A stretch of 64,000 nucleotides of DNA from Streptomyces griseofuscus (GTDB lineage Bacteria; Actinomycetota; Actinomycetes; Streptomycetales; Streptomycetaceae). The position numbers were made by a program, and so were the translations under genes. The stretch lies in NCBI RefSeq assembly GCF_014673495.1, contig NZ_CP051006.1:8493001-8557000 (forward strand), given 5' to 3'. Every line of letters starts with the position of its first letter. The stretch's first letter is position 1. Below are positions 40,913-56,371 of this stretch, in pieces. The notes below the pieces were generated by a model. It made no database searches. It was given only the letters and a program-made list of their open reading frames with translations, and was not told the origin of the DNA.

Positions 40913-40937
40913 TGCTCTCCTCCGCTCCTTCCGCGCG

Positions 40938-41933
40938 TCAGATCGCTGCCATGAGATCGGTGACCGCAGGGGTGACGGCGGGGCTCTTGACGACGGTCTC
41001 GGCGTCGCCGAGTTTGCGGTAGGCGAAGGTGGTGAGGCAGGCCCTGGCGACCTCGGTGAAGGCGAAGGACGCTTTCGTGGCGGCGAAGCGGTCCACGGCC
41101 GCGCTGTCACCCGCTTCGGCCGCCGTACGCAGTCCGCGTTCGAGGTCCACGAGTTCTCGTACGGCGGCGCGCACGTCGTCCGGGCCGCTGGGCAGGGCGG
41201 GCAGCTCCACCGGTGTCACCGGTTGTGAGATCAGCCTGCCGACCAACTCGACCTCGTTCTCGTACACATGGAAGGTGCCGGACTGATGGATGTAGGGGCC
41301 GCAGGCGGCATCCAGCAGGGCGGCGGCGACCTGGTGCATCACCATGAACAAGAAGGCGTCGTAGGGCAGCACGGTCAGGGCCTGCTGCGCCCGCATCACG
41401 GTGATCCAGGTGAGCGCGCCGTCACGCAGGAACAGCTGGACGCCGGCGGCACAGGGGTGCTCGCGGGACTGTGTGAAGTGGTCCGATGAATCGAGGATGA
41501 CTGCGAATGTCCGGCGATGCGCCGGGTCCCGCCGGATCCGATCGATGATCGCTTCCAACTGGTTCCCCGACGCCGCGGCGAGCAGCCGTCGGCCGAACGC
41601 CCCGCTCAACGTGTGCTGGTCGTCGGAGTATTCGTAGGCGCCGCGACGGTAGTAGGCGGGTGTGCCGACATCGTCCCTGCCGTCCAGCGACCATGCCGCC
41701 AGGCCGAAGCAGTAGGGGAGGTGGACCGGCAGCAGGGGCGTGAAGGCCAGGCAGGACCGCGGTGAGCCGATGCGTAAGGTGTGTGCGAGCAGCTCACGGT
41801 AGGGCCTGTCCTGACCACCGAAGCCGGAAGCCTTGGACAGCGGATCCCGCACGGACGGGACCTTGGCGCCCTGGGACAGGATGTTCTCCAGCTCTCCGGC
41901 ATAGGCCTGTGCGAACGTGTCGTAGGGGGGCAT
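40938..41933 (-). CDS. Thymidylate-synthase homologue, predicted CMP (hydroxymethyl)ase
   Basis: A 331-residue protein with the thymidylate-synthase core: paired Arg in DPAHRRTFAVI (Arg140/141), nucleophile Cys161 in EHPCAAGVQLFLRDG, Arg181 in RAQQALTVLPYD, and the late HVYENE. The residue matching the uracil-recognising Asn of ThyA (PFN) is Asp192 (PYD), as in phage dCMP hydroxymethylases, so a cytosine nucleotide is the likely substrate. MilA of mildiomycin biosynthesis is the known precedent. AGGAG precedes the ATG. It has extra N- and C-terminal sequence relative to ThyA (about 264 residues). Confidence 0.75.
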   Translation of the reverse strand: MPPYDTFAQAYAGELENILSQGAKVPSVRDPLSKASGFGGQDRPYRELLAHTLRIGSPRSCLAFTPLLPVHLPYCFGLAAWSLDGRDDVGTPAYYRRGAYEYSDDQHTLSGAFGRRLLAAASGNQLEAIIDRIRRDPAHRRTFAVILDSSDHFTQSREHPCAAGVQLFLRDGALTWITVMRAQQALTVLPYDAFLFMVMHQVAAALLDAACGPYIHQSGTFHVYENEVELVGRLISQPVTPVELPALPSGPDDVRAAVRELVDLERGLRTAAEAGDSAAVDRFAATKASFAFTEVARACLTTFAYRKLGDAETVVKSPAVTPAVTDLMAAI

Positions 41934-41942
41934 CTGTGCTCC

Positions 41943-43190
41943 TCAGCGGTTGGAGAACTGTCGGATGGAACGAGATGTGGTGGCGCACGCCATCATCGTG
42001 AGCGCGCCCACGGCCAGTGCCGCACCTGTCGCGGGGAAGCCTCCCCAGCTCACCAGTGCTCCCACGACCGCCGGCGCCAATGGCGTGACGGCATTGCTGA
42101 GCAGGTTCACCGCCGAGTGCACGCGGCCCTGCAACTCGTCCGGTGCGTGCGCCGTCTGATAGCCGAAGATGATGCTCTGTGTCGGGGCGATGGTCGTAGC
42201 GAGTAGAAAGATCACGATCGCCACGGCCCAGGGTGCCGAGCTGACGGCGAGGACCGCGAGCATCGGGGGCCACAGCCACCCCAGGGCGATCAGCAGGGCG
42301 CCGTCACGGTACTTCGTGCGCAGTTGCGGCACGGCCAGCGCCCCGGCGGCCCCGCCGATACCGCCGCACGCGAGCAGTATCCCGATGACCGCCGGTGCGA
42401 CACCGGCCGTACGCAGACCGACGATGACGCCCAGCGGCATCGCCGCGACGATCGCGTTGATGCCGCAGAGATAGACCAGGCTCGCCCGGCCCGGCCGGTC
42501 GTGCCAGACCCAGCGCATGCCCTGGAACAGTTCCGACGTGGCCAGCGGCACCTTGTGCTCCGTGCCGGAGAGGCGGGTGGTGATGCCCAGCACGGCGGCA
42601 AGCGACACGAGGTAGGACCCGGTGTCGACGAGGAACGGCACCGGCGCTCCGAGCGAGAACAGAAACCCGCCGACGGGCGCTCCGGCGATGGTCGCGGCCT
42701 GGAGGTAGATCTGGTTGTGCGCGATGGCCTCGCTCAGCCGCGTGCGTGGGACGAGATACGGGAGCACCGCGCGCTCCGCCGAGAAGAAGAACACCGAGAA
42801 CGCACCTTCGAGGAAGGCCGCCCCCAGGATGAGGGGGTAGCCGGCCGTTCCGGTCACAACCGCCGCGGCAAGGCCACCGGCCGTGGCGGCCCGGCCGACG
42901 TCGCACCAGATCAGAACACGCTTCCTGGAGCAGACGTCGACCACCAGTCCTGCCACCAGGCGCAGCAGCAGTCGCGAACCCGTGCTCACCAGCCCGACGA
43001 GGCCCGCCTTGAACGGGGTCCCGCCAAGGTGCAGTACGAGCAGGGGGTAGGCCAGATCGCTGGCCGCCGAGCCCACGCTGGAGACTCCCTGCCCGAACCA
43101 CAGCAGCCAGAAGTCGCGGCCGAACCGGGGCCGACCCGGGCGGGTACCCGCCTCGGCCGGGCCGGACACCGGCGCCGGGTTCTCACTCAT
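41943..43190 (-). CDS. MFS transporter, probable product exporter
   Basis: A 415-residue membrane protein with about 12 hydrophobic helices. It has the MFS motif after helix 2 (LVVDVCSRKRVLIWCD, an unusual DxCSRKR form), and SELFQGMRWVWHDRP in the central cytoplasmic loop as in MFS_3 (EntS-like) drug or siderophore exporters. It lies 9 bases upstream of the TS-like gene and 8 after the GNAT gene, firmly inside the leftward operon, so export and self-protection are the natural role. Confidence 0.85.
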   Translation of the reverse strand: MSENPAPVSGPAEAGTRPGRPRFGRDFWLLWFGQGVSSVGSAASDLAYPLLVLHLGGTPFKAGLVGLVSTGSRLLLRLVAGLVVDVCSRKRVLIWCDVGRAATAGGLAAAVVTGTAGYPLILGAAFLEGAFSVFFFSAERAVLPYLVPRTRLSEAIAHNQIYLQAATIAGAPVGGFLFSLGAPVPFLVDTGSYLVSLAAVLGITTRLSGTEHKVPLATSELFQGMRWVWHDRPGRASLVYLCGINAIVAAMPLGVIVGLRTAGVAPAVIGILLACGGIGGAAGALAVPQLRTKYRDGALLIALGWLWPPMLAVLAVSSAPWAVAIVIFLLATTIAPTQSIIFGYQTAHAPDELQGRVHSAVNLLSNAVTPLAPAVVGALVSWGGFPATGAALAVGALTMMACATTSRSIRQFSNR

Positions 43191-43198
43191 CGCGACGG

Positions 43199-43771
43199 TC
43201 AGACCTGAGAGGTGTCCGACTGCCGGTGGAGCACCCTCATCCGCTCGGCGAACTCCTCGGCGAGGACGCCGTAGAGCACTGCGTCGACCGGGGTGCCATT
43301 GATCAGCCGGGCCTTGCGCGCGATCCCTTCCTGGACGGCGCCGGCCGCCTGACACGCGGCGGCCGCAGGCAGGTTCTGTGCGAGGACCCAGGCGTAGATG
43401 CGGCGCAGTCCCATGACGTGGAAGCCGAATTCGGCCATCAGCAGCGCGGCTTCGCGGCCGAGGCCAAGCCCTCGGTTGCTGATGTCCCCCAGTGCCAGCG
43501 AGACCTCGGCCGACCTGTCCTCGGAGCCGGGGTTACGCAGCGCACCGAGCCCGAGGGCGGCGCCGTCCTCGGGCGAGTACAGCATGAAGGTCGCGTCGTG
43601 GTACGAGGGTTTGCCGTGCCTTTCGATCCAGTCCCGCCAGCCGCCGCGGCCCACCGGGTAGCGGTAGCCGAACATGTCGCGGAAGTAATCCTCCTGGAAC
43701 CATGTGTAGACCACGTCGGCGTCCTCGGGTTCCAGGGCGCGTAGAGCAACCCGCTTTCCTGGTGTCACCAC
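43199..43771 (-). CDS. GNAT N-acetyltransferase (RimJ/RimL-like) of the nucleoside cluster
   Basis: A 190-residue protein. KRVALRALEPEDADVVYTWF is a RimL-like N-terminus, the acetyl-CoA loop is in NRGLGLGREAALLMAEFGF, and ACQAAGAVQEGIARKA corresponds to motif B. It could acetylate an amino group on the product or resistance target. GTG 43771 follows a GAGGAGAGGA site. Operon member with gaps of 8 and 32 bases. Confidence 0.82.
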   Translation of the reverse strand: MVTPGKRVALRALEPEDADVVYTWFQEDYFRDMFGYRYPVGRGGWRDWIERHGKPSYHDATFMLYSPEDGAALGLGALRNPGSEDRSAEVSLALGDISNRGLGLGREAALLMAEFGFHVMGLRRIYAWVLAQNLPAAAACQAAGAVQEGIARKARLINGTPVDAVLYGVLAEEFAERMRVLHRQSDTSQV

Positions 43772-43803: not shown

Positions 43804-44529
43804 CTACTTCCGATCCAGCAACTGAGCGAAGCGTCGCTCCCAGGCGTCCTGATTTCCCTTGGCCTCCTGGACGAACCGGCTCCGGGCGATCCCTTGGATC
43901 ACCATGTTGTTGACCAGGGAGTACGGAAAGGCCATCGGCCGTACGACATCCATGAACAGCACGGCACGGTCCTCGTCGGTCCCGTTCCAGGCTTCATGTA
44001 CGTAGGTGTCGTCGAAGAACATCCCGGTCCCCTCACTCCAGTGCGCCTCTTGTCCGCCGACGCGAATACCACAGGCGTTCTCGGGCGACGGGATCTTCAG
44101 CGCGAGGTGATAGCGGACCACGCCCTTGTAGGGGCCGCGGTGCGGTGGCACATGTTTGTGCGGGCCGAGGATCGAGAAGAAGGCCGTTTTCAGACCGGGT
44201 ACCCGGGCCAGCAGTTCAGCTGTCCGCGGGCACCGTGCGCAGTTGGCGTCGAACCGGAACCCGTAACCGTAGAAGAAATAGGTCTTCCACTGGTCGTCGT
44301 CGGTGATGCGGCGTTGGTCGGTCGAGATGTCCTGGAAGTTGGGCAGGGCTTCGCGGTGCTCCAGCAGGGCGTCGAGTTCGGCTCTGACGTCACGCCAGTT
44401 GCCTTCGAGTCCACGGCTCCACGGGAACGCCGATTGTGGGATGAACGGGCTGTCGTCGAAGCGGGAGTGGTGGACCATCTGCTTTTCGATCCACTTCACC
44501 AGCATGGGAAGAATTCTCGGCACAACCAC
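43804..44529 (-). CDS. Aspartyl/asparaginyl beta-hydroxylase-like Fe(II)/2-oxoglutarate oxygenase
   Basis: A 241-residue protein. GPHKHVPPHRGPYKGVVRYH carries the first iron-ligand His, DDTYVHEAWNGTDEDRAVLF the second His and the Arg for 2-oxoglutarate, the layout of Asp/Asn beta-hydroxylases, which use two His and lack the usual carboxylate ligand. In this operon it may hydroxylate a free or tethered amino acid, or the nucleoside. The start is uncertain (GTG 44529 or 44523, or ATG 44505). No signal peptide. Confidence 0.82.
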   Translation of the reverse strand: MVVPRILPMLVKWIEKQMVHHSRFDDSPFIPQSAFPWSRGLEGNWRDVRAELDALLEHREALPNFQDISTDQRRITDDDQWKTYFFYGYGFRFDANCARCPRTAELLARVPGLKTAFFSILGPHKHVPPHRGPYKGVVRYHLALKIPSPENACGIRVGGQEAHWSEGTGMFFDDTYVHEAWNGTDEDRAVLFMDVVRPMAFPYSLVNNMVIQGIARSRFVQEAKGNQDAWERRFAQLLDRK

Positions 44530-44560: not shown

Positions 44561-45118
44561 TCAGGTGCGTGGCGTCACGAGCTCGGCTCGGCCGCCGGCC
44601 GGAATGACCGGGCCGAGCAACTCGGTGGTGACCCGGTCGAGTTCGTCCGGATCGAATCTCCCGTCCTCGACACCGACGTATCGGACCGGAGCGATGGTGT
44701 GCACCCCCGCGACGAGCGGCGGCACTTCCTGACCTCGCTCGATGAGGAGGATCATGGGCTTGGCCATGGCCGACATCCAGCCGATCTCCACCATCGTGCC
44801 CGGCGAGGGCGGGTCTCCGGGATACGCTACGAAGAGTACGGCCTTGCGCAGTGCGAGATAGTCCAGCCGGGTGCACACGTCCGCGGCCATGACCTCGGCC
44901 CCCCAGGATTCCCGGCGATGGGCGTTGTCCACCTCGAACCCCAGCGCGGTGAAGTGGTCGATGAGAGCCCGGTAGTTGCTGCGGTGCCGGTCCGGAAGAA
45001 GCCCCGTCTCCGGGTCGAGCAGCCCTTTGAAGGGGCCACCGACGAAGACCAGCGGTCTGCTCCCGTCAGGGTGCGGTGGCTCGTCGGCGGACAGGGGAAG
45101 CGATTCGGGGTGGCTCAC
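44561..45118 (-). CDS. Nucleoside 2-deoxyribosyltransferase-superfamily protein, predicted (hydroxymethyl-)CMP N-glycosidase
   Basis: A 185-residue protein with the superfamily signature: FVGGPFKG at the start, an Asp in TRLDYLALRKAVLFVA and the catalytic Glu in GTMVEIGWMSAM. MilB and BlsM of mildiomycin and blasticidin clusters, which release cytosine or hydroxymethylcytosine from CMP, belong here. GTG 45118 is chosen for the GGAGGG site 9 bases upstream and normal family length; GTG 45253 would add 45 unmatched residues. First gene of the leftward operon. Confidence 0.75.
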   Translation of the reverse strand: MSHPESLPLSADEPPHPDGSRPLVFVGGPFKGLLDPETGLLPDRHRSNYRALIDHFTALGFEVDNAHRRESWGAEVMAADVCTRLDYLALRKAVLFVAYPGDPPSPGTMVEIGWMSAMAKPMILLIERGQEVPPLVAGVHTIAPVRYVGVEDGRFDPDELDRVTTELLGPVIPAGGRAELVTPRT

Positions 45119-45657
45119 CGAGAGGTTCCCTCCGTTGTAGAAGATTTGGTGTGGGACAGGTGCGGATTCTCCGGTGTCACGGGCGTTGATGACCCCGTGC
45201 GGTACACCTGACGTCAGTTCGCCGGCGATTCCGGCGCCCGCGGATTCCGACACCCGCGACAGGAGGTTTTCTCCTAAGGCCGAAACTTGCCACTCCCATG
45301 TGCTGCGACTTCACGGCGTCTGAGTGGCGAGCGCCGTGGCCTCTTCCAGGGCAGCGAGCCGCCTCGGGGTACCCGGCGTCCTGCTCGGCGCGGAAGAGTG
45401 AGTGATGGATTTCGCACGTGCGTTCCCCCGAGTTTTACTCGTCATTGCGGCAAATGACGGGTCGACTGCAAGCTTCGAGTGAACCGAAGTCCGTGTCAAG
45501 GCCACGGCCCGGATGATGTTGGCCAATAAGAGAGGTTGCGGGTGATTGGAAATCGATGTTACGGTCGGCCCGGTGTCTATTCAGCAGCGGTGGCCGACGA
45601 CTTCGGCAACGAAATCTTCCTGCTGCTGAGAGGATCTTTGCGCCAGGGGGCCGAGAC
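45119..45657. promoter_or_regulatory. Divergent promoter region of the nucleoside cluster
   Basis: About 540 bases between the two divergent operons, distinctly less GC-rich than its surroundings at 45420-45600. No gene is supported. AGGAG-GTTTT-CTCCT (45261-45275) is a small hairpin. No cluster-situated regulator is encoded in the region, so control probably comes from elsewhere plus the TTA codon at 45676. Confidence 0.5.
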
Positions 45658-46632
45658 GTGGACGCACAAATTCCGTTAAGCGCACCACCCTCCATGGAAC
45701 TGGTCTACTTCGGGCTGTTCGACAATTGCAATGCCCGGTGCAATATGTGTGAGTGCTGGCTCGCTCCGAGAGCCGATCTGCCACTCGCCCATTACCGGAA
45801 TGTACTGTCGGCGGTGCTGTCTCTCCGGCCACGCGCCGTGCGCTTCACCGGCGGTGAACCACTGATCTTCGCCGAGCTGCCGGAACTCGTAAGTCAGGCA
45901 GCCGCGGAAGGCGTTCGGGTATCGGTCATCTCCAACGGGCGCATTCTCGGCCCCGGTAAAATCCGTGCCTTGATCGACAGCGGATGCACGGAGATGGTGC
46001 TGAGCATCGATGCGCTGCGAGAGAAGCACGACCGGATACGCGGCACCCCAGGTCTCTTCGACCGCTGTATGGAGGCGGTCGCGGACCTCCACGAAGCGAA
46101 GATGGACTACGGCGTCAACACGGTGCTGCAGGCGCTGGGGGCGGACGACCTCGCATCGCTGGGCGAAACGCTCCGGACACAGCCCAACCCGCCGTCGTGG
46201 TGGCACCTCATCCCCGTCCGGGGCGACGACGCGCTCCGGCCCAGCGCGGTTCAGCGGGCGCGCATGCAGGAACTCATACCGAGACTTAGGGAACGGATGT
46301 CCCAGGCGGGGACCCGGATGGTCGCGGCCGACGACCCCTTCCTCGATGCCGGCCCCGAGCCCTGCACGGTGCCGACCTTCACCTCGTACGTGCGCGCTGA
46401 CACCGGCGACATCTTCGGGTGCAACATGCTCGTCTACGCCGATCCGCCGCTCGGAAACGTCCTGCGGTGGCGCGCGCAGGACGCCTGGAACAGCCTGGAG
46501 GCCCACAGTCTGCGGGACCGCTGCGCCACCGGCACGAACAGGTCATGCTCCCGGTGCGACCCGAGTTCCAAAGCGATGAACCACGTCCTGAGGGAATTGG
46601 CCGCTTCCGTCGCACCCGAGGAATCACTGTGA
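45658..46632 (+). CDS. Radical SAM enzyme, BlsE/MilG-like candidate
   Basis: A 324-residue protein. The 4Fe-4S/SAM motif is Cys24-x3-Cys28-x2-Cys31 (NCNARCNMC), followed by FTGGEPL. A SPASM-like Cys set lies near the C-terminus (EPCTVPTF, FGCNM, RDRC, SCSRC), implying auxiliary clusters. In blasticidin and mildiomycin pathways a radical SAM enzyme decarboxylates the cytosylglucuronate sugar; this is the matching candidate. GTG 45658 has AGGGGG 7 bases upstream. Codon 7 is TTA (45676-45678), a bldA-dependent codon. The stop overlaps the next GTG start. Confidence 0.85.
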   Translation: MDAQIPLSAPPSMELVYFGLFDNCNARCNMCECWLAPRADLPLAHYRNVLSAVLSLRPRAVRFTGGEPLIFAELPELVSQAAAEGVRVSVISNGRILGPGKIRALIDSGCTEMVLSIDALREKHDRIRGTPGLFDRCMEAVADLHEAKMDYGVNTVLQALGADDLASLGETLRTQPNPPSWWHLIPVRGDDALRPSAVQRARMQELIPRLRERMSQAGTRMVAADDPFLDAGPEPCTVPTFTSYVRADTGDIFGCNMLVYADPPLGNVLRWRAQDAWNSLEAHSLRDRCATGTNRSCSRCDPSSKAMNHVLRELAASVAPEESL

Positions 46633-47861
46633 CCACGAACACCAGGCCGGACTCCGGCATGCTCGCCATCAACGGTGGCTCCCCGGTCCGCGCGACGAAG
46701 AAGGCGGCGGATCCGGTCATCGCGGAGGCAGCCAAAGAAGAGGCCCTCCGCGTCCTGGACAGCGGTCAGCTCGCCAGGTTCTACGGCGGCACGAAAGTCG
46801 CCGAGTTCGAGGCGGCCTATGCCGAGTGGTTCGGCAGGCGCCATGCCGTCGCGGTCAGTTCGGGGACCGCTGCCCTGCACGTCTCCTACCTTGCCGCCCG
46901 ACTGCCCGAGCACAGCGAAGTGCTGGTCCCCGCCAACGCCTATGTATCGGCGCTGTCCGCGCTGATCCAGGCCGGTCTGGTCCCCGTGATCGTCGACATC
47001 GACCCGGCCGGCTGGGCGATGGATCCGGTCGACTGCGCCCGCAAGATCAGCGACCGCACGAGCGCGATCGTGCCGGTGCACATGTACGGACAGCCCTGCC
47101 CGATGACTGAACTGGCCACTCTGGCACGGCAGCACGGGCTCACCCTCGTCGAGGACTGCGGCCAAGCGCACGGCGCCCTCTGGGACGGCACGAAAACCGG
47201 CACATTCGGTCTCGCCGCGGCCTTCAGCCTCTGCTGCCGCAAGCACATCGCCGTCGGCGAGGGCGGCATCGTCGTCACCGACGACGAGCAGTTCGCCGAC
47301 ACCGCGCGGGCACTGGCGCACAAGGGCAAGGGCACCGGTTGGTTCGACTACCGGGAGATGGGCTTCAGCTACAACATGACGGAGATCCAGGCGGTGCTCG
47401 GCCGCTGGCAACTGTCCAGGCTGGAGACCGAGTTGCGGACCAGGACCAAACTCGCCGAGCTGCTGCGCGCGGGCCTGGCCGACCTCGGACTGCAATTCCC
47501 CGAGGTGGCTCCCGGCAGCACCCATGCGTACTTCAAGCAGAACGCCTTGCTGCCGGCCCGGCTCGCTGCGCACCGGAACGCCATCGTCGACGCCGTCCGC
47601 GCCGAGAACGTGGGCTGCGACCCCTCCCACCCGCATCTGCTCGACATCGACTGGATCCGTGAGCAGCGCCCCTCCCTCTACCGGGCGCTGCCCGCGGAGC
47701 ACCGTCCCGACTACGGCAGGAACACCGCGCCCCTCGCGCGGGGCGTGCTGTCCCGGCAGATCTGCATCGAGATGGGGCCGGGGCTGGACGAAGAGGACAT
47801 CGACTACACGATCAAGGCCATCCGGAAAGTGGTCACCATCTTCGGCCAGGAGGCCACGTGA
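46629..47861 (+). CDS. DegT/DnrJ/EryC1-type PLP aminotransferase
   Basis: A 410-residue sugar aminotransferase-fold protein: VSSGTAALHVSYLAA, the PLP-anchoring EDCGQAHGA, and the Schiff-base Lys in SLCCRKHIAVGEGG. It also has the family C-terminus (ARGVLSRQICIEMGPGLDEED). Members aminate keto-sugars; here it would act on the keto-pentose left by the radical SAM decarboxylation. GTGA overlap with both neighbours shows tight coupling. Confidence 0.88.
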   Translation: MTTNTRPDSGMLAINGGSPVRATKKAADPVIAEAAKEEALRVLDSGQLARFYGGTKVAEFEAAYAEWFGRRHAVAVSSGTAALHVSYLAARLPEHSEVLVPANAYVSALSALIQAGLVPVIVDIDPAGWAMDPVDCARKISDRTSAIVPVHMYGQPCPMTELATLARQHGLTLVEDCGQAHGALWDGTKTGTFGLAAAFSLCCRKHIAVGEGGIVVTDDEQFADTARALAHKGKGTGWFDYREMGFSYNMTEIQAVLGRWQLSRLETELRTRTKLAELLRAGLADLGLQFPEVAPGSTHAYFKQNALLPARLAAHRNAIVDAVRAENVGCDPSHPHLLDIDWIREQRPSLYRALPAEHRPDYGRNTAPLARGVLSRQICIEMGPGLDEEDIDYTIKAIRKVVTIFGQEAT

Positions 47862-48892
47862 CCGTCGACGATCCCACGGCCGGCGCCCCGGGTGGCGACA
47901 AGGCATCCGCGGACGCTCTGTACCTCGGCCTGCGGGACGGAGAAGCCCCCCTGACCCGAGAGCAGGCGTCCGCGCTCGTCCGCGCCGCCCATCCCGCGCA
48001 CTCGGACGTGCGCGCATGTGAGGCATGCGGGTCCGCCAGCACCCGACCAGCCACCTGGCGGCGCGGCTTCCGCATCGCCGAGTGCCTGGCCTGCGGCTTC
48101 CTCTGGGTCGATCCCATGCCGACCGCACAGGACATGTGGGCCTACTACAACAAACGAACATGGAAGCCCTACTCGCCCGAGGTGATCCGCAGCAAGTACG
48201 CACCATCGGTGGCAGCGGTACTGGCCAACGTCCCGCCCGGGCAGTCCGTCCTCGACGTCGGATGCGATCACGGGCACTTCGCGGCGCTCCTGCGCGACCG
48301 CGGATACGACGTCGCCGGGTCGGACATCGACGGGCTCGCCCTCACCTACGCCACCGAGCACTACGGGCTGACGGTCTACCAAGGGGACCTGCCCGACATC
48401 GACTTCGACCGACGATTCGACGCGGTGACCATCCTCAGCTCCCTCGAACACATGGTGAATCCCTTCCATGTCGTCCGGGCGGCAGCGCGGGCCCTGCGCC
48501 CCGGCGGAGTGCTGCTCATCTCGACGCCGAGGGCCGACGGGCTCGTCCACACCGTGAGCCGGAGAGTATTCGCCCCCGTACTGCACGCCTGGGAGTTCCT
48601 CGCACCCCCCAGCCACCTCACCTACTTCGGCCGGGGCTCGCTGCGCGCCATGCTCCGTCGCGCCGGATTCGCCACTGTCACCTTCAGCCACCAGGAACGC
48701 GACGCCGCCTACCGGGCCCGTGAGCTGTCGGAGACGCTCACGGAGTGCCCGGACGCGCCCGGCTGGGCCAAAGCCACCTATCCGCTCCTGCGCCATCTGC
48801 GCACCCCCGCCCGTCTGCTGGACCTGGGGGACATGATGCTGTGCGTCGGACGGACACCCATGCCGTCCGCACCCGGCACGGAAGGGCCCTGA
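47858..48892 (+). CDS. Class I methyltransferase with N-terminal CxxC zinc-finger-like region
   Basis: A 344-residue protein. Two CxxC pairs (ACEACGSAS and ECLACGFLW, about 50-85) resemble the zinc-binding N-terminus of many C-methyltransferase-like sugar enzymes. The SAM domain has SVLDVGCDHGHFAALLRDRG and a motif LRPGGVLLISTPRADG. Acceptor unknown: the base, sugar or side chain. It overlaps the aminotransferase stop by GTGA and is 2 bases from the glycosyltransferase start. Confidence 0.83.
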   Translation: MTVDDPTAGAPGGDKASADALYLGLRDGEAPLTREQASALVRAAHPAHSDVRACEACGSASTRPATWRRGFRIAECLACGFLWVDPMPTAQDMWAYYNKRTWKPYSPEVIRSKYAPSVAAVLANVPPGQSVLDVGCDHGHFAALLRDRGYDVAGSDIDGLALTYATEHYGLTVYQGDLPDIDFDRRFDAVTILSSLEHMVNPFHVVRAAARALRPGGVLLISTPRADGLVHTVSRRVFAPVLHAWEFLAPPSHLTYFGRGSLRAMLRRAGFATVTFSHQERDAAYRARELSETLTECPDAPGWAKATYPLLRHLRTPARLLDLGDMMLCVGRTPMPSAPGTEGP

Positions 48893-48894
48893 CC

Positions 48895-50130
48895 ATGGCC
48901 GGTGAAGACAGGACAGCCCCGGTACCGTGGCGGGACGTCCCGGCACCGGCCGGCGCCGCCCGGCCCACGGTCGTCTTCTGCGGGCACGACTTCGGCTGGG
49001 GGAGCGCCGGAAAACTGCACGCCGTCCTGACCGAACTCACGGCCCGCACCGCGCCCCCGCCACGGCTCATCGGAGTCGGCACGGTGCTCGGCCGATCTCT
49101 GCTCGCGAAGCTGCCCGTGGACACGTGGTACGACCAGCCGAGCAGCACCGGCGAACTCCGGGACCTGCTGCGACGGCACCAGGTGACCGCCGCCCTGGTT
49201 GTACTGGACTCGAAGTTCGCCGCGGCCCTGCTCGCCGCGGGCTGCCCCACGGTCTTCGTGGACAGCCTGCCCTACCTGTGGACCGACAAGGACACGATTC
49301 CCCACGACGTGACCCACTACTGCGCCCAGTTGTGCGAGTCCCTGCCCCGGACCTGTTGGGAGCAGTTGCGCAGAATAGAGCGGCTGACGTGGACCGAGGC
49401 GATCCTCAGCGCCCCGGCGCCCACCCAGCGGGCGCGTACGCCCGGCTTGGCCGTGCTCAACTTCGGTGGGCTGCACTCGCCCTTCAGCCAAGGCAGTGCC
49501 AACGCCTACTCCGGGCTGGTCGCGGAACCGGCCGTCCGGGCACTGTCGGACGCCGGCTTCCGCACCCTGGAGATCTGCGGCAACATCGACGCCACCGTGC
49601 TTCCGGAGCGGGACATCCCCACCGGCATCGCGGTGAACGCCGGGCCGCGCTCCCACGAGGAGTTCCTGGACCTCCTCGACCAGGCTCAGCTGCTGGTCAC
49701 CTCGCCGGGCCTGACCACGTTGCTGGAGGCCGGCCAGCGCTGCCTGCCCACCGTCTGCATTCCACCGCAGAACGTCAGCCAGATCCTCAACGGGGACCGC
49801 TTCGCCTCGGCGGTCGAGGCGGCCTGCCGGGTGCCGTGGCCGTCGGAAGTCCTCGATCCGCGGCAGGTCGACGCCGTACGAGCACGGGGTGAACACGCGG
49901 CCCTGTCAGTCGTCTACGGGGCGATCGAGCGCGCTGCGCGCCAGGCACATCCCTGGGTGCGGCACCGACTACAGCGGGATATCACCACCGCCATCGAGCA
50001 TTCCCGTGCGGTGCGGGACTGGGGCGGTCTGCTCGGCCGGACGGGCAGCCGCGGAGCACACCAGGTGGTGCAGCGCCTCACCGAAGTACTCGCGGAGCAG
50101 TCCGCGCCGGAGCGCCAGGAGGCCGGGTGA
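48895..50130 (+). CDS. GT-B glycosyltransferase-like protein, candidate cytosylglucuronate synthase
   Basis: A 411-residue protein with a GT-B layout. Its N-terminal Rossmann start is VVFCGHDFGWGSAGKLHAVL, and its C-terminal donor site reads LVTSPGLTTLLEAGQRCLPT and IPPQNVSQILNGDRF. Weak overall similarity to MGT-type transferases. In cytosine-nucleoside pathways (BlsD, MilC) the free base is joined to UDP-glucuronate by such an enzyme; context makes this the only candidate here, but the donor is not proven by motif. The stop overlaps the phosphatase GTG. Confidence 0.68.
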   Translation: MAGEDRTAPVPWRDVPAPAGAARPTVVFCGHDFGWGSAGKLHAVLTELTARTAPPPRLIGVGTVLGRSLLAKLPVDTWYDQPSSTGELRDLLRRHQVTAALVVLDSKFAAALLAAGCPTVFVDSLPYLWTDKDTIPHDVTHYCAQLCESLPRTCWEQLRRIERLTWTEAILSAPAPTQRARTPGLAVLNFGGLHSPFSQGSANAYSGLVAEPAVRALSDAGFRTLEICGNIDATVLPERDIPTGIAVNAGPRSHEEFLDLLDQAQLLVTSPGLTTLLEAGQRCLPTVCIPPQNVSQILNGDRFASAVEAACRVPWPSEVLDPRQVDAVRARGEHAALSVVYGAIERAARQAHPWVRHRLQRDITTAIEHSRAVRDWGGLLGRTGSRGAHQVVQRLTEVLAEQSAPERQEAG

Positions 50131-50798
50131 TCCTGGCCTTCCTCCGGCACACCGCGGCGATCAGCTCCTCGGAGGTCTACCTGCCCGACGACCGCCGGGT
50201 TCTGACCGAGGACGGGCGGACGCACGCCGTCGCCCTGCGTCCCGTCCTGCGGCGTTTCGCGCCCGACGCCGTCTGGTGTTCCCCGCTGCGCCGCGCGGTG
50301 GAGACCTGGACACTCGCGGGCACCGGACTCGGCCTCGACGCCCGTCTGCACGAGGACCTGGGGGAGCGCTCGTTCCCCTCCCTGGCCGGCCTCACGCTGC
50401 CGCAGATCGCGGCGCGGATCGGGCCGGCGCAGACGGCGCTGGCACGCGTCTCGACCGACCTGGTCGATCCTCCCGGAGAGGAGTCGGTACGCGCGGCGAG
50501 CCGGCGCTTGGTCGTGGCGATGAGGTCGGTGGCGCGGGAGGCCGCAGCGCTCGGCGCCGAGCGGGTGCTCGTCGTCTCGCACGGCGGCCCGTCGAGCTGG
50601 TTGCTGTGCCATCTGCTCGAGGTGCCCCTGGAGCGCAACCGGGTCTTCCGACACGACCAAGGACGCTTCCACCTGCTGGAAGTGGATGAAAACCTGACAC
50701 TGGCGACGGCAATCGCCCTGAACACCGCACAGTTGCCGGAGCCAAGAGGTGCTCCCGAGCCGCCGGGGCAGTTCACGGCACCGCCTTCATGGCATTGA
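50127..50798 (+). CDS. Histidine-phosphatase-family protein
   Basis: A 223-residue protein with the branch-1 signature LRHTAA (Arg and catalytic His; the usual Gly is Thr), WCSPLRRAVET, and the second His in VVSHGGPSS. Such enzymes remove phosphate from sugars or nucleotides, so it may dephosphorylate a pathway intermediate or a phosphorylated self-protected product. GTG start coupled to the glycosyltransferase gene. Confidence 0.8.
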   Translation: MILAFLRHTAAISSSEVYLPDDRRVLTEDGRTHAVALRPVLRRFAPDAVWCSPLRRAVETWTLAGTGLGLDARLHEDLGERSFPSLAGLTLPQIAARIGPAQTALARVSTDLVDPPGEESVRAASRRLVVAMRSVAREAAALGAERVLVVSHGGPSSWLLCHLLEVPLERNRVFRHDQGRFHLLEVDENLTLATAIALNTAQLPEPRGAPEPPGQFTAPPSWH

Positions 50799-50817
50799 CG
50801 ATTGGAATTGCAGCGCT

Positions 50818-51339
50818 ATGGCACATGTGCCCGTCATCGTGGTCACCGGGCCTTCCGGCACCGGCAAGACCGTCACCTGCTGGGAGATCCGCGAAATCCT
50901 GAGGGAACGTAAGGTCGCCCACGCCCTGATCGACATGGACAACATCCGTTGGTGCTACGTTCCCGACTCCCGCGACCGCTTCAACCGGGTACTCGGTGCC
51001 AAGAACCTCGCAGCCGTGTGGGCCAACTTCCGTGAGGCCGGCGCCGACCGGCTCGTCCTGAGCGGAGTCGTGGAAAGCCGCGAGGACACGCGGCTCATCG
51101 AACAGGCGGTGCCGGGCGCCGACATCTCGGTCTACCGGCTGCACGTGGACGAGGCGACGCTGGAAGACCGTATGCGCCAAAGGGAACGCGGTCGGGGACT
51201 CGCCCGCAATCTCGCCAGGGCGAAAGAACTCACCGACATCATGGCCCGGAACGGGATCGGGGACCATCTGATCGATGCGGACCGCGAACTCGACGAGATC
51301 GCTGAGGAAATCGTCGGCCTGAGCGGCTGGCTGTCCTGA
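50818..51339 (+). CDS. P-loop kinase/phosphotransferase of unknown substrate
   Basis: A 173-residue AAA-type small kinase. Walker A is VTGPSGTGKT (about 9-18), the second acidic motif is in HALIDMDNIRWCY, and a lid region rich in Arg (RMRQRERGRGLARN) follows. It resembles adenylylsulfate/gluconate kinase-size proteins and antibiotic phosphotransferases such as chloramphenicol 3'-O-phosphotransferase. With the phosphatase next door, a phosphorylate-then-activate self-resistance scheme is possible. ATG 50818 has no strong ribosome site. Confidence 0.72.
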   Translation: MAHVPVIVVTGPSGTGKTVTCWEIREILRERKVAHALIDMDNIRWCYVPDSRDRFNRVLGAKNLAAVWANFREAGADRLVLSGVVESREDTRLIEQAVPGADISVYRLHVDEATLEDRMRQRERGRGLARNLARAKELTDIMARNGIGDHLIDADRELDEIAEEIVGLSGWLS

Positions 51340-51359: not shown

Positions 51360-52406
51360 ATGAAAGTGACCCTGCTCGTGACCGGTGAGGAGATGCGCGG
51401 GCTGTTGAGCTCGTCCGCGGTGAACGACCTGTGGTCGGGCGGTGCGCACCTGCCGTACTGGCAGCCGGCCGCCCTCGCCGCGCGCGTCAAAGCCATCGGG
51501 CGGCACGAGGTGGCGCTGTTGGTCATCGAAGGGGACGGCGGTATGGCCGTCGGCGTTCTTCGGCAGCGGCCAAACGGCGTCATCAGCACGCTCATACCGC
51601 GCGAGCCCTTTCTGGCCAACGAGCCTTTCGGTGACGCGGACATGTTGCGCACGCAGTTGCTCCGGTCCGTGGAGAGAATCGGCGCCAGGGCCTTTCATCT
51701 GCACGAGACGGAACGAAACGCCCCGGTCGTCGAGTGCCTGGCAGATCAGCCGGACACCGCAGTGGTGGTGCGCCTTCCGAATCCGGTCATCGACTGGCAC
51801 GACGACGGTGCGGACATGCTGATCGGAGCGCAACGGCATTTCGGCCGGACGTTCTGGCGCCGGGTCCGGCGCTGGGACCGGGAGTTCGAGGTGACGACGG
51901 TGCGTGAAGATGCCGCGATCGACATGATGGAAAACATCGAGAGACGATCATGGAAAGCGCGTCGGGGCACCCATCTCGACGCAGGGGAGCTGGCGTTCTA
52001 CCGCGCGCTGCTGAGGCGGGACGAGTGCCTGCTCACTCTCGCGACGGCCGGGGGTGTACCGGCCGCGTACTTCATGGAGATGCGCCTCGGTGACGTGGTC
52101 TACGGCATGCAGAGTTCCTACGCCGAGACCTTCGCCAGGCTGTCTCCCGGCGCGTTCCTGACCACCATCGGTCTGCACCGCCGGTGGCACGGCAGCGGTA
52201 TCGCGACCTACGACATGCTCGGCGGTAGCGGGCCGCTCAAGGACGCCCTGGCCTCGCGCGCGATCCCGCGTGTCGACGTGGCCTGGCCGGTATGCGCGGC
52301 GACCAGGGACCTGCTCGGGGAGCGAGTCAGGTTCGACCGACACAGGACAGCCGCGTCCGAGCGCGGACGGGGTGCGCGCCATGTCGCCGCGACCTACGGC
52401 AGCTGA
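51360..52406 (+). CDS. FemAB/BioF2-like GNAT acyltransferase
   Basis: A 348-residue protein with two GNAT-like halves. Its C-terminal part (IERRSWKARRGTHL, FYRALLRRDECLLTLATAGG, ATYDMLGGSGPLKD) matches the BioF2/FemAB acetyltransferase pattern. FemAB relatives move amino acids from aminoacyl-tRNA onto amines; others use acyl-CoA or carrier-bound acyl groups. In this cluster it could attach the side chain made by the downstream carrier-protein trio. ATG with CGGGGGAG upstream. Confidence 0.72.
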   Translation: MKVTLLVTGEEMRGLLSSSAVNDLWSGGAHLPYWQPAALAARVKAIGRHEVALLVIEGDGGMAVGVLRQRPNGVISTLIPREPFLANEPFGDADMLRTQLLRSVERIGARAFHLHETERNAPVVECLADQPDTAVVVRLPNPVIDWHDDGADMLIGAQRHFGRTFWRRVRRWDREFEVTTVREDAAIDMMENIERRSWKARRGTHLDAGELAFYRALLRRDECLLTLATAGGVPAAYFMEMRLGDVVYGMQSSYAETFARLSPGAFLTTIGLHRRWHGSGIATYDMLGGSGPLKDALASRAIPRVDVAWPVCAATRDLLGERVRFDRHRTAASERGRGARHVAATYGS

Positions 52407-52425
52407 GAGGCGGAGGTCTTTCCGG

Positions 52426-53349
52426 ATGAACCATCCCCCTGTGCAGGGTTCCTACGGTCCACTGGCCTGGGTCTCCGATGCGATGCACGGCATGTACCCG
52501 GACCGCGAGGGCCACCTGAGACGGCTCGGGATGCGGTCGGCGGACGACGAGATCAGCACAGAGCTGCCCGTGGTCGGTCTCCTGGGAGCAGCCGACTGGC
52601 GCGCCGCGACCTGTGTGCTGGCCTCGCCGTGCATCGACCACTCGTCCGGGCGGATATCCGGGCTCACCGCCTCCGTCGCGGGAGATCTCCTGATCGGGCT
52701 CCGGGTGGCGGAGGCGCTCGGACTGCCGATGGTCGGTTTCCTCGGAAGCGGCGAGGAAACGCACCTGGTGCCCAGCGGCGAGGAGCGGTGTGCGGACTGG
52801 CAACGGGTCGCCGAGTACGTCGCCGGCCTCGGGACCCGTTGGGCACGGGGCCGCGTCGACGCGACGTTCGTACGCACCGGTGAGCCGGTCGCATGGGCCA
52901 CCATCAAGGCACAGACCGCGGCGGACCACGACCGCGTTCCCCAGGCAGGCCTCGACGGCCTGCACCGCCTCGTCGACGACAACCCTTATCCGCGGGGGAC
53001 CCGTTTCACCTACCTCTACGACTACTACCGGTCAAACATCTCGCACTACCGCCGGCCCGTCATCGAGGCGTTGGCGGGCGTCGACACCACACATGTGCTG
53101 GTGGTCGAGAACGTGCAGCAGATCAAGTGCGTTGCCTGGGCCCGGGCCCTCAACGACGCCGACGGCATCCGCACCAGCCACCTGGTGACCTGCCCGGCAC
53201 CGGATGCCACCAACAGCGTCCGGGTGAGCCGGGCCGAGCCCCGGCACCGCATCATGCTCGCGGACGTCCTTTCCGGGCGGCAGCCCGGCAGTGCGCCCTA
53301 CTGGGCGTTCCTGTCGGCCCTGCGTGACCGCTTCGACGCGCATGGCTGA
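52426..53349 (+). CDS. Protein of unknown family in the nucleoside cluster
   Basis: A 307-residue protein I cannot assign. It is soluble, without signal peptide or membrane segments. Conspicuous segments: ASPCIDHSSGRISGLTASVA, VGFLGSGEETHLVPSG, a Tyr-rich run FTYLYDYYRSNISHYRRPVI and HVLVVENVQQIKCVAWARAL. The alternation of beta and alpha stretches suggests a Rossmann-like fold. ATG 52426 has GGAGG upstream. It overlaps the PLP decarboxylase by 8 bases, so the two are co-expressed and probably act in one step. Confidence 0.7.
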   Translation: MNHPPVQGSYGPLAWVSDAMHGMYPDREGHLRRLGMRSADDEISTELPVVGLLGAADWRAATCVLASPCIDHSSGRISGLTASVAGDLLIGLRVAEALGLPMVGFLGSGEETHLVPSGEERCADWQRVAEYVAGLGTRWARGRVDATFVRTGEPVAWATIKAQTAADHDRVPQAGLDGLHRLVDDNPYPRGTRFTYLYDYYRSNISHYRRPVIEALAGVDTTHVLVVENVQQIKCVAWARALNDADGIRTSHLVTCPAPDATNSVRVSRAEPRHRIMLADVLSGRQPGSAPYWAFLSALRDRFDAHG

Positions 53350-54640
53350 CCTCGGCGCCGCGGCATGGGAGGATCAGCTGGCCCAGTGCTACCCCGGCCC
53401 GGTGTACGTGTACGACCTGGATCGGGTGACGGCCGCCGTGGAAGACCTGCGAGCGACGCTTCCGGCACCGAGCCTCCTCTACTACTCCCTCAAGGCCAAC
53501 CCGCACGACGACGTCGTACGGGCACTGCGGATCGCCGGCTGCCGAGCGGAGATCAGCTCGGTGGGAGAGCTGGCCTGCGCGCTCGGTGCCGGGTTCCGCG
53601 GCGCCGAAATCCTGTACACAGGGCCCGGAAAGACGGACGGCGAGATCGCGCACGCCCTGCGGCACGGGGTCCTCGACTTCTCCGTGGAATCGGCGCACGA
53701 ACTGCGGCGGCTCGACCGGATCGCGGCCGTCGACGACCGCTGGCCGCGTGTACTGCTGCGCGTGAACGGGGCGCGTGCGGCCCCGGCCGGCGGCCTGCAC
53801 ATGACCGGTACACCCTCGCAGTTCGGAATCGACCTGGAACTCCTCGGCCCGGCGCTCGCGGCGGCCGCGCGGTGTCCGCGGATCGACCTCGCCGGCCTCC
53901 ACCTGTTCTCGATGACCAACGCCGTCGACGAACCGAGCCTGATCCAGGAACTCCGTCGCAGTATCGCCACTGCCGCGGAGGTATGCGACCAGTACGGGTT
54001 TGCACCGCGGATGCTGGACCTCGGCGGCGGCTTCGCCGCTCCCTACACGCAGTCCGGTCGACGGCCCGGCTACCCCGGGCTGGCACAGGTGCTCCGGCAG
54101 GACCTGGACCTGCTGTTCCCGGAGTGGCGCACGGGAGCCCCCGTGATCGCCTTCGAGTCGGGCAGACATCTCGTCGCCGACTGCGGCACGCTGATCTGCA
54201 CCGTCACCGAGGTGAAGAACAGCAAGGGAAAGCAGTTCGTGGTGCTCGACGCGGGGGTCAACGCGCTCGGCGGACTCTCCGGGACGGGGAGGTTGCTTCC
54301 CCTGTCCGTGGAGCCCGTCGATATCCCGCGGGCGGCCGACGCCTCCGACGCAGCCCAGGTCTCCGGCCCGGCCGTGACGTCAGCACGTATCGTCGGGCCG
54401 CTGTGCACTCCGGCCGACCTGCTCGGCCGGGAGGTGCCGGTACCGCGACTGCGGCCAGGCGACCGGATCGCAATCCCGAACGTCGGCGCCTACGGCCTGA
54501 CCACCGGCCTGCTCGGCTTCCTCAGCAGGCCCGCCCCGACCGAGCTGGTGGTACGCGGCGGGAGCGTCGTCTCCGCGTCCCGCCTGGAACTGAAACGTGT
54601 GCCTGTCGAAAGGGAGTGGGAAGACGATGCCATGGGATGA
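53342..54640 (+). CDS. PLP-dependent decarboxylase, fold type III (DAP/ornithine decarboxylase-like)
   Basis: A 432-residue alanine-racemase-fold decarboxylase: PLP Lys51 in YYSLKANP, HLFSMTN at the third segment, LDLGGGFAAPY, EPGR-like FESGRHLV, the catalytic Cys in GPLCTPADLL and the Tyr in NVGAYG. Followed at once by a carrier protein and a ligase, as with BtrK/BtrI of butirosin, where an amino acid is decarboxylated while bound to a carrier. It is therefore more likely a carrier-tethered amino-acid decarboxylase than lysine biosynthesis. Confidence 0.85.
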   Translation: MADLGAAAWEDQLAQCYPGPVYVYDLDRVTAAVEDLRATLPAPSLLYYSLKANPHDDVVRALRIAGCRAEISSVGELACALGAGFRGAEILYTGPGKTDGEIAHALRHGVLDFSVESAHELRRLDRIAAVDDRWPRVLLRVNGARAAPAGGLHMTGTPSQFGIDLELLGPALAAAARCPRIDLAGLHLFSMTNAVDEPSLIQELRRSIATAAEVCDQYGFAPRMLDLGGGFAAPYTQSGRRPGYPGLAQVLRQDLDLLFPEWRTGAPVIAFESGRHLVADCGTLICTVTEVKNSKGKQFVVLDAGVNALGGLSGTGRLLPLSVEPVDIPRAADASDAAQVSGPAVTSARIVGPLCTPADLLGREVPVPRLRPGDRIAIPNVGAYGLTTGLLGFLSRPAPTELVVRGGSVVSASRLELKRVPVEREWEDDAMG

Positions 54641-54884
54641 CCGATTCGAGGCACTGCTGCGCGCTGCGCTGCCCTATCTCTCTCCCGACGAGCCGCTGTC
54701 GCCCGATGCCGAGCTCATCGACCTCGGTATCGACTCCATGGCCGCGGTCGAGCTGCTGAGCACGTTGGAACAGGCGTATGACGTGCGCTTCCCCGACGAC
54801 AGCCTCCACCGCGAGACCTTCCGCACCGCCGCCGCCCTGTGGTCGGTCCTGAGCCGACAGCTCTCCCGGGAGCCGACGCTGTGA
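54627..54884 (+). CDS. Acyl/peptidyl carrier protein
   Basis: An 85-residue stand-alone carrier with the 4'-phosphopantetheine attachment Ser37 in DLGIDSMAAVELL. It overlaps the decarboxylase end and the ligase start (GTGA), forming a decarboxylase-carrier-ligase trio. It presumably holds the activated amino acid during decarboxylation and transfer. Needs a phosphopantetheinyl transferase, which is not in the window. Confidence 0.87.
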   Translation: MPWDDRFEALLRAALPYLSPDEPLSPDAELIDLGIDSMAAVELLSTLEQAYDVRFPDDSLHRETFRTAAALWSVLSRQLSREPTL

Positions 54885-56371
54885 CCGTCGAGGCACGGCA
54901 GGGGCCGACCCTGCGCCATGTCGTCGACGTGCTGGACCACGCGGCAGCCGCCCACGGGGGTGAGCTGGCCGTGACCGATGACGAGGGTGACTGGAGCTAC
55001 GCCGAACTCGCTGAGCACAGCTGTGAGTTCGCGCAGTGGCTGCGCCGCCGGGGCGTGTCCGCCGGGGACCGTGTGGTGGTGTGCGCCACCGCGAGCCGTG
55101 AGTTCGTCGCCATCCTCTACGGCTGTCTGCGGGCGGGGGCGGTCTTCGTGCCGCTCGGCCCCGCGACAACGGCGTACCAACTGGGCCAGGTCGTCGCGGA
55201 CGCCCGACCCCGCCTTGTCATCACCGACCGGATCGACGAGACAGCGGACACGGCGTGCAGCCTGCAAGAGGTCTGGGCGGAGGTAGGGCGACCGGGCGGC
55301 CCGATGACGCACCCGCGCGCCGAAGTCGCCCCGGCGCAAACCGCGTTGCTTATCTACACCTCCGGCAGCACCGCCGCACCCAAAGCGGTCGTCTCTCCAC
55401 ACGGGAGGGTCCTGTGGGCGACCCGCGCCGTCGCGGCGCGGCTGCGTTACCGGACGGACGACATCGTCCTCTGCCGCCTGCCCCTCTCCTTCGACTACGG
55501 CCTCTACCAGGTCTTCCTGTGCGCCCTGGCCGGTGCCCATCTGGTGCTGCTCTCCCGGAAGGCGGACCTGCGGCTGGCCGCCGTCGCGCGAGAACGCGGC
55601 GCCACCGTCGTGCCGTTGGTGCCCTCACTCGCGACCATGCTCCTGCACAGCGCCCGGCGCGACCCCGGACCGAGCCGGATCCGCCTCTTCACCAACACCG
55701 GTGAAGATCTCCCCCAGGCGGTGCGTGCCCAATTGCGCGAGCACTTTCCCCGCGCGGGCATCCAGTTGATGTACGGAACCACGGAGTGCAAGCGGATCTC
55801 CGTACTGGAGGTCGACGGCGACCTGCGCAGGCCCGGTTCGGTAGGCCGCGCGCTCGACGGCACACGCATCCGCATCCTGACGGCGGACGGTCTTCCCGCC
55901 GCACCCGGCGAGGCGGGCGAGATCGTGGTCAGCGGACCGCACGTGATGGCCGGGTACTGGCGGGCGCCCGAGCTGACCGCCGCGCGCTTCCGGACCGATC
56001 CGCACACCGGCGAGGTGCGGCTGCACACCGGGGACTTCGGGCATCTCGACGGCGACGGCTACCTCTACTTCCACGGTCGTGGCGACGACATGTTCAAGCG
56101 CCGCGGTGTGCGCACCAGCGCCGCCGAGATCGAGTCCGCCGCCCGGGACATACCGGGGGTGGACCATGCCGTGCTGCTGCCCCCCACCGACCGCCGGGAC
56201 ATGGTGCTCTGCGTGGTCACGACGCTCACGCCGACCGAGGTGCTGCGTCACCTCGGCACGCTGCTGGATCCGGCGCGCGTGCCCGATCGGTGCCGGGTCT
56301 TCGACCGGTTTCCGCTCAGCTCCAACGGGAAGACCGACCGGGCCCGGCTGTCCCGGCAGGAGGCCGGTTGA
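54881..56371 (+). CDS. AMP-forming ligase (adenylation enzyme)
   Basis: A 496-residue ANL-superfamily enzyme: A3 motif IYTSGSTAAPKAVV, A5 GTTECKRIS, A7/A8 HTGDFGHLDGDGYLYF and GRGDDMFKRRGVRTSAAEIE, and the A10 Lys in SSNGKTDRARL. Similar AMP-ligase, carrier and PLP-decarboxylase trios are known from exosortase-A-associated loci. It probably loads an amino acid or related acid onto the adjacent carrier. Last gene of the rightward operon; hairpins follow. Confidence 0.87.
   Translation: MTVEARQGPTLRHVVDVLDHAAAAHGGELAVTDDEGDWSYAELAEHSCEFAQWLRRRGVSAGDRVVVCATASREFVAILYGCLRAGAVFVPLGPATTAYQLGQVVADARPRLVITDRIDETADTACSLQEVWAEVGRPGGPMTHPRAEVAPAQTALLIYTSGSTAAPKAVVSPHGRVLWATRAVAARLRYRTDDIVLCRLPLSFDYGLYQVFLCALAGAHLVLLSRKADLRLAAVARERGATVVPLVPSLATMLLHSARRDPGPSRIRLFTNTGEDLPQAVRAQLREHFPRAGIQLMYGTTECKRISVLEVDGDLRRPGSVGRALDGTRIRILTADGLPAAPGEAGEIVVSGPHVMAGYWRAPELTAARFRTDPHTGEVRLHTGDFGHLDGDGYLYFHGRGDDMFKRRGVRTSAAEIESAARDIPGVDHAVLLPPTDRRDMVLCVVTTLTPTEVLRHLGTLLDPARVPDRCRVFDRFPLSSNGKTDRARLSRQEAG

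Follow-up and report, generated by a model that had tools for sequence, protein, structure and literature searches.

A thymidylate-synthase homologue in a cytosylglucuronate-type gene cluster of Streptomyces griseofuscus: a candidate flavin-dependent CMP 5-hydroxylase

In a 64,000-nucleotide stretch of Streptomyces griseofuscus DNA (contig NZ_CP051006.1, positions 8,493,001 to 8,557,000; "the window" denotes this whole stretch), the minus-strand gene at 40938..41933 encodes a 331-residue protein of the thymidylate synthase (TS) fold, proposed herein to be a flavin-dependent CMP 5-hydroxylase based on its Pfam PF00303 match, its best PDB match (MilA), its AlphaFold model, and its active-site signature. 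Its ATG start has GAGGAG upstream, and it is the last in a series of minus-strand genes with gaps of 31, 32, 8, and 9 bases (taking 43190 as the exporter start), encoding (i) a MilB/BlsM-type CMP N-glycosidase (44561..45253; BlsM at 5.1e-40 and MilB at 5.7e-36 in the PDB) whose Lys76 (numbered with the GTG at 45253 as start) falls where MilB has Arg23 (FVGGPFKGLL), (ii) an oxygenase of the aspartyl/asparaginyl beta-hydroxylase family (43804..44529; PF05118, 2.8e-53), (iii) a GNAT acetyltransferase (43199..43771; PF13302), (iv) an MFS exporter (41943..43190; PF07690; ATG candidate at 43190, longest ORF from 43355), and (v) the TS homologue itself. The five genes apparently form one operon. The original prediction had placed an N-glycosidase homologue adjacent to the TS homologue; the gene is indeed present on the same strand, but three others lie between the two. 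Downstream of the TS homologue, ORF 40175-41110 displays, by eye, a sulfotransferase-like P-loop (GSGRCGTTSL); this ORF was left out of the cluster because its match in S. natalensis covers only 65 of 311 residues.

The plus-strand genes that follow encode a radical SAM/SPASM protein (45556..46632), for which the best NCBIfam model is BlsE at 79.4 bits, below the cut-off of 400; a DegT/DnrJ/EryC1 aminotransferase (46419..47861 as the longest ORF; PF01041, 8.3e-84), the true start of which is probably later since this ORF overlaps that of the radical SAM protein; a SAM methyltransferase (47858..48892; PF13489); a cytosylglucuronate/hydroxymethylcytosylglucuronate (CGA) synthase (48745..50130 as the longest ORF; TIGR04467, 392.9 bits, cut-off 300); a histidine phosphatase (50127..50798; PF00300); a P-loop kinase-like protein (50749..51339; PF13238); a GNAT-domain transferase (51360..52406; PF13480) presumably resembling FemAB-type transferases; an ORF with no family match (52270..53349); a PLP-dependent decarboxylase of the Orn/DAP/Arg type (53291..54640; PF02784); a carrier protein (54597..54884; PF00550); and an adenylation enzyme (54839..56371; PF00501). 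Features of a CGA-type peptidyl nucleoside cluster are thus present, i.e., a CGA synthase above its curated cut-off and a CMP hydrolase. The CGA synthase has no solved relative at 0.01, and no flavin reductase family was matched among the cluster proteins scanned against Pfam and NCBIfam.

The TS homologue matches PF00303 at 48.9 bits (cut-off 24.3) and falls far under the cut-offs of all six NCBIfam thymidylate synthase models matched; the host genome also encodes a ThyX above cut-off, for dTMP. On these two grounds, a housekeeping ThyA was ruled out. By phmmer, the best PDB match is MilA (5b6d, 8.1e-21). With an AlphaFold model built from 31 sequences (pLDDT 89.6, pTM 0.90) as the Foldseek query, seven MilA chains ranked first (TM 0.80-0.84), and the phage enzyme AfhB was absent among the 50 matches listed. 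VIA-align superposed the model on MilA across 306 residues (Z 36.1, rmsd 2.1, ~25% identity), encompassing both the MilA-type TS fold and the C-terminal helical domain; next in order came AfhB (9iqc at Z 24.9 with rmsd 2.0, 9iqu at Z 24.3) and then E. coli TS (Z no higher than 23.8), the 9iqu score being level with that of ThyA. Relative to the S. natalensis orthologue, the gene has a dN/dS of 0.16, with ten neighbouring genes at 0.06-0.21, by which a pseudogene was ruled out.

Across 295 genomes of the genus, 41 contained a match at 1e-10, and only three encoded proteins of at least 60% identity (the own genome twice); across 396 genomes drawn phylum-wide, a match of at least 60% was found in the own genome only. 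A scan of named genomes yielded 18 loci. The resulting clade has 21 members, of which two (from the window and S. natalensis, 92% identical) reside in a CGA-type cluster. In 17 others, a B12-binding radical SAM gene and a methyltransferase-like gene follow the TS homologue, mostly together with a HAD phosphatase, a FemAB-like and a further transferase, and, in most, a divergent ECF transporter (L003:4542-17889, i.e., own genome C1 at about 209500-222900, plus L049-L058, L060-L064, and L148). The host's own paralogue (63%) belongs to this kind of operon, beyond which an MFS exporter, an ATP-grasp protein, and a PhyH-type oxygenase are encoded at L003. As for the two remaining members, the contig of L059 ends after the gene, and the S. 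hokutonensis member (L065:10001-10984, 54%) sits in neither known neighbourhood. The L148 member is carried on a linear plasmid of Streptomyces sp. NBC_01591, in a stretch without genes in the PLSDB table. A MilB homologue was absent from those B12 radical-SAM operon loci that extend at least 8 kb (1e-6; 1e-8 for L148), and proteins of this operon have no match in the window at 1e-5 except for the TS homologue and generic exporters; the operon probably makes a second nucleoside-type product. No description of either a 5-hydroxycytosine antibiotic or this operon was found among the matches listed and in open PMC papers. Scans of viral sequences detected no viral relatives of the clade.

The substrate side of the active site agrees with what had been predicted from the gene alone, namely that an Asp replaces the Asn with which ThyA recognises uracil, and that the nucleophile and Arg pairs are kept. 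An ungapped alignment pairs T187-V188-L189-P190-Y191-D192 with E. coli L172-G173-L174-P175-F176-N177, and D192 (codon GAC, 41358..41360, minus strand) falls opposite E. coli N177, T4 dCMP hydroxymethylase (T4 CH) D179, and MilA D186 (a number obtained by counting along the printed row of the phmmer alignment). Asp186 is reported to be common to MilA, BcmA, and T4 CH, with Asn in TS and dUH (SPO1 dUH) (PMC5175136). Asp at this position is invariant in 21/21 clade members, so Asp192 is no chance change. The nucleophile Cys161 (41451..41453, minus strand) is likewise retained, as are R140/R141 (E. coli R126/R127) and R181 (R166); together with D192, H222, and Y224, these residues are present in 20/20 clade members. 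Ala182 corresponds to the ribose-permitting Ala176 of MilA, a position at which AfhB has Ser. The helper Lys133 of MilA is Arg140 here, which is the state of the deoxyribose enzymes, so the ribose preference is not certain. A cytosine nucleotide as substrate is nonetheless well supported by D192, the MilA fold match, Ala182, and the Lys76-bearing glycosidase of its apparent operon, with CMP predicted as its likely sugar form.

The remainder of the catalytic apparatus is of another character. E. coli E58, Y94, D169, and G173 correspond to L78, F113, Q184, and V188 in the TS homologue, and the same four replacements occur in 21/21 clade members. Leu78 (41700..41702, minus strand) was placed at the position of the catalytic Glu of TS, CH, and MilA (Glu68 in MilA) by phmmer, MAFFT, and hhalign, and the T4 CH paper describes this Glu as highly conserved across all TS/CH/dCH members; at Gln184-Val188 (41370..41384, minus strand), the pterin-side Asp has become an amide and the Gly a Val. 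E, Y, D, and G are all retained in 27/27 MilA-like Streptomyces proteins and in the 15/15 MilA-like controls of a wider comparison (12 picked from those 27 plus three from the phylum-wide draw). ThyA controls have E58, Y94, and D169 in 12/12, with position 173 being G in seven and A in five, and other controls have E, Y, D, and G in 10/11. The four are also retained in the best 80 of 574 viral MilA/CH relatives, a set retrieved with two search patterns, one of which (MR..D...G) contains positions 169 and 173 and the other (.D.F) position 177. Due to the change of all four in the clade, a plain MilA orthologue was ruled out, and folate-dependent 5-hydroxymethylation is not supported. The original prediction of 5-hydroxymethylation (or methylation) of CMP, which overlooked these four changes, thus stands for its cytosine nucleotide and gives way for the group transferred, against which the active site argues. 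The single exception among the other controls, the TS homologue of Mycobacterium phage Candle (L149:768-1766), has R at 58, Y at 94, N at 169, and I at 173, so that positions 58, 169, and 173 can also change in another way; it has N at 177, and with its changed folate side it may act on uracil. In a common MilA-like group of Streptomyces (L009, L010, L012-L031; 22 of the 27), the Ser167 position holds Gly in 20 and Ser in two, and position 126 is Arg rather than Lys.

Among solved structures, a non-acidic 58, an amide at 169, and Val173 recur in AfhB. PDB titles give 9iqu as the dCMP hydroxylase AfhB of phage HY126 and 9iqc as a riboflavin-dependent monooxygenase with dCMP and FAD; AfhB is thus deposited as an FAD-dependent dCMP hydroxylase. 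A 114-residue stretch of 9iqu is present at 100% in phage records, one being that of a Mosigvirus. 5-Hydroxycytosine was recently reported as a base of phage DNA that an enzyme of the TS superfamily produces, with Mosigvirus making 5-hydroxy-dCMP via a 5-hodCMP synthase of that superfamily (PMC13390438); we infer that AfhB is this synthase. A profile of the clade retrieved AfhB from the PDB directly after MilA (3.6e-11; best ThyA 4.1e-8), and with the window protein alone as query, three ThyA (1e-10 to 9.7e-9) came ahead of AfhB (1.9e-8). In full-length phage AfhB-type sequences, positions 58, 143, 169, 173, and 177 are occupied by F, E, N, V, and D, respectively. The Glu at 143 is Glu158 of the TS homologue (41460..41462, minus strand; E. 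coli L143, T4 CH D145), part of an E-(H/Y)-P-C motif common to AfhB. A signature of non-acidic 58, E143, amide 169, V173, and D177 was carried by 21/21 clade members, by 44/44 AfhB-type rows (37 distinct, the rows including near-copies) plus Rhizobium phage AF3, and by 0/38 controls (15 MilA-like, 12 ThyA, 11 other); counts for the AfhB, clade, and viral sets are biased because signature positions lie within the search patterns (MRSQN for the AfhB set, YCFGL for the clade, MR..D...G and.D.F for the viral set). The L148 protein, found by tblastn with no signature pattern, carries the full signature.

E143 alone is not diagnostic, since one of the best 80 viral CH relatives has it, and position 94 is Phe in the clade and Tyr in AfhB, hence not a shared state. 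The AfhB residue at the Glu58 position was Phe in 6/6 profile comparisons; one MAFFT run, against the other alignments, puts a Glu of two AfhB proteins there, which, if right, would remove one position from the signature shared with the clade. Over 205 core columns, three states that are uncommon in the other groups (L147, E158, V188) occur in both the clade and AfhB, compared to 0 or 1 for the nine other group pairs. The two groups branched together with support of 94/87 in one tree run and apart in another, and also apart when signature columns were masked (p-AU 0.115); either common descent or parallel change may underlie the shared states. A single-sequence AlphaFold model of AfhB came out poor (pLDDT 37.6) and played no part in the comparison. 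As judged from the aligned residues, the five states would define an AfhB-type family.

The hydrolase of the same apparent operon bears on the product. The MilB Arg23 position is reported to be Arg or Lys in hydrolases linked to TS homologues and another residue in unlinked ones, with Arg/Lys tied to recognition of the 5-substituent (PMC4081090), a rule derived for 5-hydroxymethyl-CMP. All five TS-linked hydrolases compared herein have Lys (window, L037, L039, L048, L151). At 12 other CGA-synthase loci (11 above cut-off, including one of just 6 kb), the stretch fetched contained no TS homologue at 1e-6; a hydrolase was found at three, with V, V, and G at the position in question (L185, L186, L187), and at the other nine no hydrolase was found. 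These three, having no detected TS homologue, fit the published rule. Such a pattern supports a window product with a 5-substituted cytosine, while the Lys does not tell which substituent it would be. Near the Lys hydrolases of L037:8093-10453, L039:8382-10663, and L151:2995-5246 lie a MilA-like gene and either a ThiD-like (by eye) or a methyltransferase gene, and these Streptomyces loci look like bacimethrin clusters.

Taking the computed fold, residue states and their co-occurrence, gene order, and neighbours together, we lean, with modest confidence, towards a TS homologue that hydroxylates CMP at C5 in a flavin-dependent manner and supplies a pathway to a 5-hydroxycytosine nucleoside; flavin use, the 5-hydroxy product, the preference for ribose, and the order of pathway steps are what such a model would predict. 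Herein, an enzyme of MilA architecture would bind CMP, holding the phosphate via R140', R141', and R181 and the ribose via A182, H222, and Y224, with D192 reading and protonating cytosine N3. Following addition of C161 to cytosine C6, the C5 carbanion/enamine would take oxygen from a flavin hydroperoxide situated in the vacated folate-site space, with E158 near C5; i.e., reduced flavin and O2 would replace methylenetetrahydrofolate, and C5 would gain a hydroxyl rather than a hydroxymethyl group. Departure of C161 would release 5-hydroxy-CMP, from which the MilB-type hydrolase would free 5-hydroxycytosine, and the CGA synthase would join this base to glucuronic acid en route to a peptidyl-nucleoside antibiotic. 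At about even chances, the same reading may extend to the entire clade as bacterial flavin-dependent CMP 5-hydroxylases of secondary metabolism (in which flavin has taken over from folate and ribose from deoxyribose), which would found two undescribed antibiotic families: (i) a 5-hydroxycytosyl-glucuronate peptidyl nucleoside (window, S. natalensis), and (ii) a product based on 5-hydroxycytidine, involving a B12 radical-SAM enzyme, a FemAB-like and a further transferase, and an ECF transporter (17 loci).

Of the alternatives, the one that survives best, though improbable, is another folate-independent C5 chemistry on CMP, in which some other electrophile, be it an aldehyde or the product of partner enzymes, would react with the Cys adduct. 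The same folate-side changes and the B12 radical-SAM and methyltransferase-like genes beside 17/21 clade members speak for it; however, it leaves unexplained why positions 143, 169, and 173 agree with AfhB, and at 1e-5 the window has no counterpart of those operon proteins apart from the TS homologue and generic exporters. A divergent MilA-like CMP 5-hydroxymethylase still using methylenetetrahydrofolate, with another residue or a water in place of the missing Glu, is improbable as well and stands a little lower. It would sit well with the full-length MilA fold match including the C-terminal domain, with Asp192 and Ala182, with retention of an acid (as Glu158) where T4 CH has its water-activating Asp145, and with the Lys-bearing MilB homologue in the operon. 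Of the T4 CH folate contacts, Tyr56 is Tyr74 and retained in 20/20 clade members, and Asn53 corresponds to position 71, which is Asn in 18/20. Yet even this Asn is His in the window protein and S. natalensis, and the positions of Glu58 (described as conserved and catalytic throughout TS/CH/dCH), Tyr94, Asp169, and Gly173 are all changed in 21/21.

A catalytically dead TS relative retained for binding or regulation would also be expected to lack the catalytic Glu and Tyr, but we consider it highly improbable given that Cys161, Asp192, the three Arg, His222, and Tyr224 are invariant in 20/20 and that the dN/dS lies inside the range of the ten neighbours. An ordinary dTMP synthase, for which the PF00303 match speaks, can practically be dismissed in view of Asp for Asn177, Leu78 for Glu58, the changed folate-side residues, the sub-threshold NCBIfam scores, and the host ThyX.

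If the 5-hydroxylase reading is true, antibiotic clusters of Streptomyces would contain a ribonucleotide route to 5-hydroxycytosine, i.e., a new base for nucleoside drugs, and flavin chemistry on the TS fold would exist outside phages as well. The Asn-to-Asp rule alone could then not separate hydroxymethylation from hydroxylation, and positions 58, 143, 169, and 173 would have to be read alongside it. Phage-like hydroxylase residues in a TS relative from an antibiotic cluster would point to 5-hydroxycytosine antibiotics as a class yet to be explored.

Amongst characterized systems, MilA of the mildiomycin pathway (PDB 5jnh, 5b6d, 5b6e, 5jp9) is alike in fold, C-terminal helical domain, Cys, Asp186, and Ala176, as well as in a gene cluster with a MilB-type hydrolase and CGA synthase; it differs in having Glu68, Tyr, Asp178, and Gly182 against Leu78, Phe113, Gln184, and Val188 here, and Lys133 against Arg140. 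The mildiomycin and blasticidin S clusters share with the window the CGA synthase, CMP hydrolase, BlsE-like radical SAM protein, and DegT aminotransferase, whereas no mil gene named in the excerpts compared corresponds to the adenylation enzyme, PLP decarboxylase, or aspartyl-hydroxylase-type oxygenase of the window. In the bacimethrin system, BcmA is a TS homologue with a partner hydrolase, BcmB, bearing Lys at the MilB Arg23 position (PMC4081090), but BcmA is reported with the MilA-type Lys and Ala (PMC5175136), and the bacimethrin-like Streptomyces loci (L037, L039, L151), unlike the window, retain E, Y, D, and G. T4 dCMP hydroxymethylase (gp42) is similar in Asp179, Cys148, the Arg pair, and His216/Tyr218, and dissimilar in Glu60, Tyr96, Asp171, Gly175, and Ser169. 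AfhB of Mosigvirus-type phages (PDB 9iqc, 9iqu, 9ir2) is a 238-residue protein without the C-terminal domain, retains Tyr94, has Ser at 167, and serves DNA modification (PMC13390438); with the TS homologue of the window it nevertheless has in common a non-acidic residue at 58, the Glu of E-Y/H-P-C, an amide at 169, Val173, and Asp177.
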